Shown: positions 20,653 through 24,894 of the stretch, piece after piece
Layout of the letters: the number at the start of each line of letters is the position of its first letter
How positions within the stretch are numbered: position 1 is the stretch's first letter
Assembly (NCBI GenBank): GCA_019637395.1
Contig: JAHBVR010000030.1
Coordinates: forward strand, 1 to 46,877
Source: Vulcanimicrobiota bacterium
Lineage (GTDB): Bacteria > Vulcanimicrobiota > Xenobia > Xenobiales > JADMJV01
Length of the DNA stretch: 46,877 bases
Direction of reading: 5' to 3'
Made by a program: the position numbers and the translations under genes
The notes under the pieces: model-generated
What the model saw: only the letters and a program-made list of their open reading frames with translations
What the model was told of the DNA's origin: nothing
Database searches by the model: none

Positions 20653-22743
20653 CTGAGGATCTACGGCATTCGCCATCACGGCCCCGGCAGCGCCGCCAGT
20701 CTGCTGGCCGCGCTGCAGGCCCAATCCCCCGATTCCATCCTGTTGGAAGGGCCACCCGATGGGGACGGGCTGCTGAGCACCACCGGCCTCTTGCCTCCGG
20801 TGGCCCTGCTGATATACCCGGAAACCCATGAGAGGGCGGCCTTTTATCCCTTCGCCGCCTTCTCTCCCGAGTGGGTGGCTTTGCGCTATGCCCAGGATCA
20901 TCACATCCCGGTGCGCTTCTGCGATCTGCCCCAGACTCACCAGATGGCACAGAACTGGCCGCGCGAGGACCGGCCCATCGACCCTATCGAACAACTGGGC
21001 GGCGAGGCCTGGTGGGAGCGGATCGTAGAGCAGCAGACCAGCCATGGCATTTTCGAGGCTATCACCGAGGCCATGGCGGTTCTCCGCGAGCAACCGGCTC
21101 AGGGACGAGAAGCTTTGCGCGAGGCCTGGATGCGCCGCACCATTCGCCAGGAAATCAAGGCCGGCCGCCAGGAAATCGCGGTGGTGTGCGGAGCCTGGCA
21201 TGCCCCCGCGCTGCTTCCAAGCAACTGGCCCGCCGTCAAGGAAGATGACGCGTTGCTCAAAGGCCTGCCCAAAGTGAAGGTCAGCGCTACCTGGATTCCC
21301 TGGACCTACGATCGCCTCTCCTTGGAGAGCGGCTATGGCGCCGGCATCGATTCTCCCGAATATTACCATCTATTATGGGAACATCCCCAGAAGGCGGGCC
21401 TCACCTTCCTGGTGCGCGCCGCGCAACTATTGCGCTCTCACGATCTGCCCGCCTCACCCGCCGCGGCCACCGAAGCGGTGCGCCTGGCCGAGGCGCTGGC
21501 CGCTCTGCGCGGTAAACCCCTGCCCGGCCTGGACGAATTGCTGGAAAGCGCGCGCACTGTGCTCACCTTCGGCGCCGAATCCCCTATGCAGTTGATCCGC
21601 CAGCAACTGGTCATCGGCCAGCGCATGGGCGAAATCCCCCCTGATGCTCCGCTGGTTCCCCTGGCCCGCGATCTCGCCGCCCTGCAAAAGCGTCTGCGCC
21701 TGCCGGTTTCCTCCGCCCACAGCGACCTGGAGTTGGACCTGCGCAAACCCAACGAACGCGAACGCAGTATGCTCTTTCATCGCCTCAACCTGCTGGCCAT
21801 CGCCTGGGCCCAGGCCCGCGAAACCAGCGGCCTGGGCACCTTCAAAGAAGGCTGGCGCCTGCAGTGGCAACCTGAATTCGCCCTGGAGTTGGTGCGCGCC
21901 GCCCGCTGGGGCAACACGGTCAAAGAAGCCACCGTAGCCTGTCTGCGCGAACGCGCCGCCGAGGCCACCTTCCTGGAGCTCAGCCAACTGGCCGAAGCCG
22001 CTCTCCTGGCCGCCCTGCCTGAAGCTCTGGACGAAATCCTGCGGCAACTGCAAAGCCGCGCTGCCCAGGGCTGGGACCCGGCTCACCTCTTGCAGACTCT
22101 GCCCACCCTGGCGCGCATCCTGCGTTACCCCGACGTGCGCGGAACCGAGGCCTCCATGCTGGAAAAGCTGCTGAGCGGCCTGCTCAAGCGCATTGCCATC
22201 GGCCTGCCGCTGGCCTGCGCCTCGCTCGACGACGACGCCGCCGGCCAGATCTACCGCCTGCTCTTGCCGGCTCATCAATCCCTGCGCACCCTGGACCGCG
22301 CCCCCTGGCTGGAACTCTGGAGCAGCGCTTTGGGCAAATTGGAAAATGCCCACGGACTGGTCAGCGGCCGCGCCGCCTGGCTGCTGCTGGAGATGAACCA
22401 GCTGGAAGCCGCCGGCGCCCTCTCTCGCGCCCTCAGCCACGCCGCCGGAGCCACCGCGGCCGCCGCCTGGGTGGAGGGCTTCCTGCGCGACAACGGCGAA
22501 CTGCTGGTCCACACCCCCGAACTGCTCGACATCCTGGACACCTGGATGCTCCCACTAGAAGAAGAACGCTTCCTGGAAATCCTGCCCCTGCTCCGCCGCA
22601 CCTTCGCCACCTTCCCCCCGGCCGTGCGCCGCAACCTCGGGCAGATTCTGGCCCGCGGCCACCAACCCCCCAAAACCGAACCCCTCAGTGACAGGTCCAC
22701 CTGGGTCCTCCCCATCCTTCACCGCCTGCTGGGGATCAGCTGA
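20653..22743 (+). CDS. DUF5682 family protein, probable CTG start
   Basis: DUF5682 proteins are large helical proteins of unknown function encoded beside MoxR ATPase, VWA, SWIM and DUF5691 genes. The N-terminal signature IYGIRHHGPGSAASLL and LLEGPPDG is intact, but the first ATG/GTG/TTG in frame (TTG 20743) lies after it. The frame stays open upstream with no canonical start for over 100 bases. The CTG at 20653 places Met exactly where the family usually begins (M-R-I-Y-G-I-R-H-H-G) and has GGGG about 9 nt before it, so I take it as the start, giving 696 aa. A further family feature is VVCGAWHAPAL near residue 175. It is followed by the hairpin array and the VWA operon. Confidence 0.82.
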   Translation: MRIYGIRHHGPGSAASLLAALQAQSPDSILLEGPPDGDGLLSTTGLLPPVALLIYPETHERAAFYPFAAFSPEWVALRYAQDHHIPVRFCDLPQTHQMAQNWPREDRPIDPIEQLGGEAWWERIVEQQTSHGIFEAITEAMAVLREQPAQGREALREAWMRRTIRQEIKAGRQEIAVVCGAWHAPALLPSNWPAVKEDDALLKGLPKVKVSATWIPWTYDRLSLESGYGAGIDSPEYYHLLWEHPQKAGLTFLVRAAQLLRSHDLPASPAAATEAVRLAEALAALRGKPLPGLDELLESARTVLTFGAESPMQLIRQQLVIGQRMGEIPPDAPLVPLARDLAALQKRLRLPVSSAHSDLELDLRKPNERERSMLFHRLNLLAIAWAQARETSGLGTFKEGWRLQWQPEFALELVRAARWGNTVKEATVACLRERAAEATFLELSQLAEAALLAALPEALDEILRQLQSRAAQGWDPAHLLQTLPTLARILRYPDVRGTEASMLEKLLSGLLKRIAIGLPLACASLDDDAAGQIYRLLLPAHQSLRTLDRAPWLELWSSALGKLENAHGLVSGRAAWLLLEMNQLEAAGALSRALSHAAGATAAAAWVEGFLRDNGELLVHTPELLDILDTWMLPLEEERFLEILPLLRRTFATFPPAVRRNLGQILARGHQPPKTEPLSDRSTWVLPILHRLLGIS

Positions 22744-22757
22744 GACAAACTCGGCTT

Positions 22758-23385
22758 ACTTGCCGGCCAGGCGGTGGATGTTACCGCCGGCGCTGGCAAG
22801 CCGGGACAGGCTCCCGGGTGGTTTCGCCACTTGCCGGCCAGACGGTAAATATTACCGCGAAATGGCAAGCCGGGCACGGAGGCCTCCGAGGGTTGTTACT
22901 TGTCGGCCAAGCGGCAAGTTTTACCGAGGAATGGCAAGCCGGGACAGCAGGCCCCCCTGGCGGTTTCGCCACTTGCCGGCAGGCGGTAAATATTACCGCG
23001 AAATGGCAAGCCGGGACCCCAAGTCCCCGGGTGGTTTTCGTCACTTGTCGCCCAGGCGGTAAATATTACCGCGAAATGGCAAGCCGGGACGCCAAGTCCC
23101 CGGGTGGTTTTCGTCACTTGTCGCCCAGGCGGTAAATATTACCGCAAAGTGGCAAGCCGGGACGGCAGACCCCGGGCGGTTTCGCCACTTGCCGGCAGGC
23201 GGTAAATATTACCGCGAAATGGCAAGCCGGGACGCCAGATCCCGGGGTGGTTTTCGTCACTTGCCGGCAGGCGGTAAATATTACCACGAAATGGCAAGCC
23301 GGGACGCCAGGTCCCCGGGTGGTTTTCGTCACTTGTCGCCCAGGCGGTAAATATTACCGCAGAGTGGCAAGTCGGGCGCGGAGGG
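22758..23385. repeat. Tandem array of nine ~72-bp double-hairpin units
   Basis: Units begin with ACTTG(C/T)C at 22758, 22829, 22898, 22971, 23043, 23116, 23187, 23259 and 23331 (spacings 69-73 bp). Most contain an inner stem GCGGTAA/TTACCGC around ATA, an outer stem CTTGCC/GGCAAG, then a second imperfect hairpin CCGGGAC/GTCCCCGG. Units 1 and 3 are the most diverged, and compensating changes keep some stems. The spacings are not multiples of three, so the peptide-like reading frames through it are not coding. It lies between the DUF5682 gene and the VWA operon. Confidence 0.92.
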
Positions 23386-23428: not shown

Positions 23429-23761
23429 ATGCCCTGCTTCCTGGTCATTCTCCTGACTGCTGCGGCCGCGGCCGAGGTCATGGACAAAGAGCCGAGCCTG
23501 TCTGAAATCTGGATGGCGGCCGCCCTCGCTGCTGTCCTCGCCTGGTTCCTGGGCCGACGGTTCCCCCGGCTGGGATGCCTGGCCCTGGTACCTTCCCTGC
23601 CCGTCCTCATGGTAGTCGAAGAAAGCTATGACAAATTCGTAGGTCAGGCCATCGTCCGTGAAGCAGGCCCAGGCTACATCGCTCAGGCTCATCTGGCCAT
23701 AGGATTGGTCCTGCTGGCCTACGCCAGCGGGCTCACCCGCCGCCCTGGAGTCGCTCGATGA
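23429..23761 (+). CDS. Small membrane protein upstream of VWA gene
   Basis: The 110-aa product has three probable membrane helices (about 1-16, 28-62 and 85-102). No family was recognised. Its stop overlaps the VWA start as ATGA (23758-23761), so both are translated together. It may anchor or accompany the VWA protein. Confidence 0.65.
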   Translation: MPCFLVILLTAAAAAEVMDKEPSLSEIWMAAALAAVLAWFLGRRFPRLGCLALVPSLPVLMVVEESYDKFVGQAIVREAGPGYIAQAHLAIGLVLLAYASGLTRRPGVAR

Positions 23762-24894
23762 GCGAGCGCCAACGCCGCTGGCGACTGCTCCTCGGCGAAG
23801 CCAGCGAGCTGCCCCTGGCTACCGCCGACTTGCGCCTCGACCAGTGTCTCAGCGGCCTTTACGGTGACGCCGACCGCAAAGGCGGGCTGGGCTCCTCCCT
23901 CCCATCCGTCTCAAGGTGGCTCGGTGATATCCGCACCTTCTTCCCCAACAGCGTGGTCCAGGTCATGCAGAAAGACGCGATCGAAAAAGTCGGATTGCGC
24001 CAGATGCTCAAAGACCCCGACTTCCTGGCTCAGGTCCAGCCCGATGTGCACCTGGTGGCCACCCTGCTCAGCCTCAGCAAAGTCCTGCCCGAGAAAACCA
24101 AAGCCACCGCCCGCCTGGTTATCACCAGGGTAGTCGAACAGCTCTTGAGGCGCCTGGCCCAGACCACCCGCTCGGCCGTCGAAGGAGGACTGCGCAAAGG
24201 CGCGCGCACCCTCCGGCCCCGCCACAAAGACATCGATTGGCTGCGCACTATCCGTGCCAATCTTAAAAACTACCAGCCCCATTACGGCCTCATCGCCGAT
24301 ATCAAAATCGGTCACTCCCGAAGAAGAAATTCATTGGCTGAGGTCATCTTGTGCGTGGACCAATCCGGCTCCATGGCCTCCTCAGTGGTTTACTCCGGCA
24401 TCTTTGCCGCCGTGCTGGCCAGCTTGCCCGCTCTGGATACCCAACTGGTCGTCTTCGACACCGCCATCGCCGACCTCACCCATCTGCTGGAGGATCCGGC
24501 GGAAGTGCTCTTCGGCACTCAGCTCGGCGGCGGCACCGACATCGCCGCCGCCCTCGGCTACTGCCAAAGCCTGATTCGGCGCCCCGCCGACACCGTCCTC
24601 GTGCTCATCAGCGACCTCTACGAAGGCGGCGATCAGCAACTCATGCTCTCCCGCGCCGCCGCCCTTACCGCCGCCGGCGTCCAGGTCATCGCCCTGCTGG
24701 CCCTCAGCGACGACGGCCGCCCCGGCTACGACCACGAAAACGCCGCCCACCTCGCCGCCATGGGCATCCCCGTCTTCGCCTGCACTCCCGACCAATTCCC
24801 CGACCTCATGGCCGCCGCCCTCCAACGACAAGATCTGTCACTCTGGGCCGCACGCCACAACATCGCTTCTCAGGGCCGGACCGTCTCGCCCTGA
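23758..24894 (+). CDS. VWA domain protein of the MoxR/DUF5682 cluster
   Basis: The 378-aa protein has a helical N-terminal half and a von Willebrand A domain from about 195. The metal-ion site DQSGSMAS (Asp201, Ser203, Ser205) is intact, with the Thr of LGGGTDI and the Asp of LISDLYE completing it. VWA proteins of this kind pair with MoxR AAA ATPases as adaptor or substrate in metal- or complex-maturation systems. The cognate MoxR is probably the one at 40.2-41.3 kb. The 3' end overlaps the convergent VOC gene by 25 bp. Confidence 0.88.
   Translation: MSERQRRWRLLLGEASELPLATADLRLDQCLSGLYGDADRKGGLGSSLPSVSRWLGDIRTFFPNSVVQVMQKDAIEKVGLRQMLKDPDFLAQVQPDVHLVATLLSLSKVLPEKTKATARLVITRVVEQLLRRLAQTTRSAVEGGLRKGARTLRPRHKDIDWLRTIRANLKNYQPHYGLIADIKIGHSRRRNSLAEVILCVDQSGSMASSVVYSGIFAAVLASLPALDTQLVVFDTAIADLTHLLEDPAEVLFGTQLGGGTDIAAALGYCQSLIRRPADTVLVLISDLYEGGDQQLMLSRAAALTAAGVQVIALLALSDDGRPGYDHENAAHLAAMGIPVFACTPDQFPDLMAAALQRQDLSLWAARHNIASQGRTVSP

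Follow-up and report, generated by a model that had tools for sequence, protein, structure and literature searches.

The MIRU loci of mycobacteria are dispersed through intergenic DNA and consist of head-to-tail units of tens of base pairs in variable copy number, and the BOX elements of Streptococcus pneumoniae are dispersed intergenic hairpin elements whose boxB module amplifies in tandem. In E. coli, the bacterial interspersed mosaic element BIME-2 binds DNA gyrase (PMC2817692). Clustered REPs are short palindromic intergenic repeats, most of which lie in convergent and unidirectional gaps (PMC3733652). Here we analyzed a tandem array in a window of 46,877 nucleotides, the whole stretch under study (positions 1 to 46,877 of contig JAHBVR010000030.1, Vulcanimicrobiota bacterium, GCA_019637395.1), and found that it represents one locus within a lineage-specific extragenic palindromic repeat family. 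A literature search found no description of repeats in the Eremiobacterota phylum.

Architecture of the window array

Tandem Repeats Finder placed the array at 22758–23376 with a period of 73 bp, 8.6 copies and 82% matches (score 686). The matches of a covariance model, R1, resolved it into nine head-to-tail units on the forward strand (22758–23372), which start at 22758, 22829, 22898, 22971, 23043, 23116, 23187, 23259 and 23331, lie 69–73 bp apart (mean period 71.6 bp) and have E-values of 5e-9 to 7e-15 in a whole-genome search. The first unit (22758–22801, forward strand) is the most decayed and has the lowest score of the array, 40.8 bits. In each unit, CTTGCC/GGCAAG encloses GCGGTAA/TTACCGC, and the unit forms one long nested hairpin, with an outer ACTTGCC/GGCAAGC and an inner GCGGTAA/TTACCGC stem, that folds on either strand. 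The first-pass annotation had described nine tandem units of ~72 bp with these stems, and they proved real and correctly placed.

The unit comprises a palindromic element and a spacer. Alignment, fold and half-site counts delimit, for example, an element at 22971–23011 (forward strand; nominally 42 bp, here 41 bp) with the half-sites TTGCC, GGTAA, TTACC and GGCAA. Spacer comparison assigns 23012–23042 (forward strand) as the spacer that follows, which is 31 bp long here; most of the family's arrays have 18 bp, and the window array is the long-spacer version. The spacer is able to form a weaker third hairpin, and folding of one unit gave a z of –2.65 as RNA and –3.0 as DNA. The window had no Rfam match at or above the gathering score.

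Distribution of the repeat family

A search allowing up to 3 mismatches to the core GGCGGTAAATATTACCGC returned 90 matches in the 7.66-Mb genome, as compared with 6 for the reversed control. Together with R1, this search located ten further tandem arrays in the window's own genome (G000, from an uncultured member of the Eremiobacterota), on contigs C2, C3, C4 (two), C5, C8, C12, C16, C17 and C31, as well as a few single elements, so that its eleven arrays and singles together amount to ~85 units. The dispersed unit consists of a 42-bp palindrome with the consensus ACTTGCCGGCCTGGCGGTAAGAATTACCGCnGnCTGGTAAGT and a spacer that differs between arrays; across the family it is a double palindrome with four half-sites (TTGYC>, <GGYAA, TTACC>, <GGYAA) and a poorly conserved, G-rich spacer, normally of 18 bp.

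Among 57 relatives searched, two Candidatus Eremiobacterota MAGs of the same genus carry the family in number (G001, 143 matches; G002, 37 matches, at E 1e-7). The remaining 55, including two other same-genus genomes and another genus of the taxonomic family, gave none, bar one marginal match of 26 bits in a distant genome (G015). An exact-pattern search of 84,980 species genomes yielded otherwise isolated matches only, in Saccharibacteria, Sphingomonas, Methanomicrobiales and Gemmatimonadetes; of these, L063 reached 18 bits and the four others had no match at E 0.01, and such isolated matches outside the genus are probably chance. A viral origin was rejected, as 2.9 million viral contigs held no exact match. 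As to clustering around dnaA, no array is listed on the contigs that carry this gene (C23 in G000, C25 in G001 and C37 in G002). In G001, a single contig of 143 kb (C4; loci L084–L090) bears about nine arrays of the window family, far denser than the rest of that genome.

Genes flanking the window array

The window array lies between a DUF5682 gene (20743–22743, forward strand; PF18934, 3.4e-218), whose stop codon is 15 bp before the array, and a VWA_CoxE gene (23758–24894, forward strand; PF05762, 8.3e-53), a position that favors a tie to the DUF5682/VWA (MoxR-type) operon, as had been suggested in the first-pass annotation. Orthologues of the DUF5682 protein in G002 (88%), G001 (83%) and G004 (62%) all adjoin a VWA gene, yet the DUF5682–VWA interval is free of an array at all three orthologous loci. 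In G004 the two genes almost touch, and in G002 the spacer is organized differently and includes two short GGCAAGTC-like repeats, possibly a remnant. Among the neighbours scanned with Pfam, only DUF5682 and VWA_CoxE were found, and no AAA/MoxR gene. The genome search for the core, set beforehand as the refuting test of this link, placed the ~85 units at many unrelated loci. Because the unit is dispersed and the array is absent at the relatives' loci, the link with the MoxR system falls; an operon-tied array is very improbable, and we reject it as a conserved link. DUF5682, the small ORF described below and VWA_CoxE are context only, DUF5682 is not functionally linked to the array, and local regulation of DUF5682/VWA is not the arrays' role. 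An array beside an interesting operon need not be part of that operon.

A small ORF of 110 amino acids (23429–23761, forward strand) starts 57 bp past the array, between DUF5682 and VWA. It has no Pfam match and is kept in G002 (61% identity over 90 amino acids); the interval in G001 and G004 is too short for it.

Placement behind gene 3' ends

Genes were called with a home-made gene caller, and 40 array or single loci had both flanks called. Convergent gaps account for 24 of these loci, tandem gaps for 14 and divergent gaps for 2, as compared with 21, 86 and 87, respectively, of the 194 array-free gaps of at least 50 bp in the same DNA (Fisher p = 1e-10 for the convergent excess and 5e-7 for the divergent deficit). 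The nearest stop codon is usually 8–80 bp from the array, and the family sits mainly behind gene 3' ends. In tandem-gene gaps, of which the window array occupies one, orientation shows no preference (8 vs 6).

Conservation of the half-sites

Of the stem cells in 140 distinct units, 91% are paired. Double compensatory changes were found in 3 cells, as compared with 4.3 in shuffled columns, and covariance analysis within the own genome gave 0 vs 1.8 in shuffles; neither is an excess. Without an excess of compensatory base changes, the data lend no support to a conserved RNA fold. The reading that structure rather than sequence is conserved and the earlier proposal that the array may be a processed structured RNA are therefore not borne out by covariation, and the palindrome is kept as sequence. 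Four pentamers, TTGYC, GGYAA, TTACC and GGYAA, are near-invariant, as expected of putative protein half-sites. One-sided changes often retain G–U pairing on the plus strand, which leaves a weak argument for RNA.

Folding is more stable than in control intergenic DNA (mean z –0.1) for units of the window family (–1.4) and, on average, of other array families (–1.0). Many G001 arrays have a T run after the element, which is no general feature in the other two genomes, and a classical terminator precedes at least one array (L013); intrinsic-terminator behaviour is not general in the family.

Array periods

For the 35 arrays in which three or more units were detected, the modal period is 59–62 bp in 28, 50–52 bp in 5 and 69–72 bp in 2, the window array entering this count as 69 bp with its weak units skipped (true mean by R1, 71.6 bp). 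The change in period is confined to the spacer (8 vs 18 vs 28–31 bp), and the 42-bp element is constant in length. The variants are one DNA turn shorter or longer than ~60 bp, a pattern suggestive of a DNA-platform role.

A further 1.19 Mb of G001 contained 16 more intergenic arrays, almost all of them belonging to other sequence families. Taken over all array families of the three genomes, 18 collapsed family-modes cluster near 39, 50, 61 and 71 bp. Their best periodicity is 10.7 bp (p 0.012–0.023 against smooth or uniform nulls) in a test that is small, made after the pattern was noticed and sensitive to how families are collapsed, and the helix-step clustering is suggestive, not proof. Two other families contain pairs one turn apart (38.6/49.1 and 48.6/59.0 bp). 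No intergenic array of such kind occurred in 389 kb of G003–G006, a sample too small to decide.

A second tandem family, with the core GCGCCCACCGGTGTCGG, has a period of ~39 bp in G001 (L084:14310–15586, L090:2003–2672, L094:7904–9096, L215:13112–13451 and L216:12087–12513) and of 49 bp in G002 (contig C16, L119:3047–3715). Another palindromic repeat, with GCCACCACCTGAGGT / ACCACAGGTGGTGGC arms, is single in G000 (L015:4864–4929 and L020:5130–5190) and forms 61–72-bp tandem arrays in G001 (L181, L223 and L227).

It is conceivable, although on balance we doubt it, that Eremiobacterota genomes build or select intergenic arrays with helix-set periods (~39, 50, 60 and 71 bp) from several unrelated families, and even from different sequences at a single site. 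If true, this would point to a hitherto unknown system that would assemble, or make use of, helically phased arrays behind gene ends, for example to absorb supercoils between convergent genes.

Turnover and homogenization

Three of the eleven own-genome arrays occupy conserved sites, G001 sharing the two on C4 and G002 the one on C2. For six, the orthologous interval was found with both flanks and holds no element; for the other two, one flank only was located or the flanks lie on different contigs. The convergent site on C12 of G000 (L015:4864–5133) shows three different states: the own genome has a window-family array, G002 (L119) an unrelated tandem array of ~49-bp units, and in G001 (L109) the convergent genes abut. 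This site is a possible hot spot for array formation.

Elements within one array are 89–93% identical. Those of orthologous arrays are 74–83% identical, as compared with 76–82% for unrelated arrays in different genomes, and the spacers follow the same pattern. Since identity within an array is high and orthologous arrays are no more alike than random ones, internal homogenization outpaces species divergence. The arrays are amplified head-to-tail in place, and their sites are gained and lost between species, that is, concerted evolution with rapid turnover.

Possible roles of the arrays

From this structure we infer a function. Our leading, still tentative, reading is that the family forms lineage-specific, BIME-like extragenic arrays that act at the DNA level, as a helically phased protein-binding or topology platform; of the classes first proposed, a BIME-like or protein-binding array best suits the window array. 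By analogy with BIME-2, gyrase or a nucleoid protein, as the DNA-binding or topology protein, would bind repeatedly along one helix face, convergent gene ends being where positive supercoils meet. Replication slippage or unequal exchange at a hairpin probably gives rise to the arrays. The dispersed distribution with its 3' placement bias, the near-invariant half-sites without excess compensatory changes, the three period classes (59–62, 50–52 and 69–72 bp) that differ in the spacer only, with a best step of 10.7 bp, and the homogenization within arrays, orthologous ones having no extra similarity, all argue for such a platform, and gyrase binding by BIME-2 offers a precedent (PMC2817692). However, the helical-period signal is of modest strength, stems from a single clade and may partly reflect an inherited ancestral 60-bp unit. 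The one-sided changes that keep G–U pairing on one strand may also suit a role in RNA, in which transcribed hairpins act as a 3' element that stabilizes or terminates convergent mRNAs. We consider this unlikely: the position behind stop codons, the stable hairpins with 91% of stem cells paired and the T run past the element in many G001 arrays agree with it, but compensatory changes are not in excess, orientation in tandem-gene gaps is unbiased, the other two genomes have no general T run, and at least one array is preceded by a classical terminator.

The main rival to the DNA platform is neutral, satellite-like DNA, which we regard as a serious though less than even prospect. Palindromic seeds behind gene ends would expand and contract by hairpin-promoted slippage, and purifying selection would clear them from promoters and genes, leaving a 3' bias without function. 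The loss of many sites between sister species also fits neutral turnover and counts against the platform. Gain and loss at most sites, strong homogenization within arrays, the different array family at the G002 orthologue of the C12 site and the coexistence of several array families in these genomes are all consistent with satellite DNA. Against it, the half-sites are almost invariant in three species while the spacers drift, and most arrays hold a period within 1–2 bp of 60. The family keeps its half-sites and period through sister-species turnover and occurs alongside other array families of similar period, offering a testable case of topological devices between convergent genes vs tolerated satellite DNA.

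Comparison with known systems

As a rule, extragenic palindromes are associated with RAYT transposases and tagged REP families; the window family is untagged and has no transposase in two of its three hosts. In 277 units, the four GTAG/CGTC tag strings turned up 33 times close to a unit end, at a chance-like level and in few arrays, with no conserved tag, and the RAYT (Y1) transposase PF01797 is absent from G001 and G002. Membership of the tagged REP superfamily or of RAYT REPINs was rejected on these two grounds. In G000, a Y1 transposase gene (C17:499–854; L102, L105) lies as two adjacent fragments in different frames and is probably broken. The array is not a CRISPR, as the first-pass annotation had held: spacers within an array are homologous (identity 0.71–0.73), and Pfam found no cas gene among the scanned neighbours. 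Integron attC sites, considered for the 60-bp hairpin units, were rejected by inspection, with no cassettes between units and no RYYYAAC/GTTRRRY consensus ends.

The likeness to MIRU, drawn by description, lies in dispersed, intergenic, head-to-tail units in variable copy number, whereas palindromic half-sites and a helix-related period are features of the window family. BOX elements likewise are dispersed intergenic hairpins with tandem amplification; in them, boxA and boxC ends flank the amplified module, whereas the ends of the window-family arrays are plain or decayed units. Like GTAG/CGTC REPs, the window family is intergenic and lies mostly in convergent or tandem gaps (24 + 14 of 40). 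It shares with BIME-2/REP extragenic palindromes, tandem clusters and dispersed copies. Unlike BIMEs, in which REPs alternate in orientation, it is strictly head-to-tail, with all units of an array on one strand, and each unit holds a nested double palindrome. The family belongs to an ordinary repeat class with unusual features, namely an exclusively head-to-tail arrangement, the absence of a transposase from two of the three hosts, a near-fixed and perhaps helix-related period, and rapid turnover with conserved half-sites. We class it with extragenic palindromic arrays, as a variant that is untagged and head-to-tail and that, judged by position, palindromy and tandem amplification, would work most like BIME-2.
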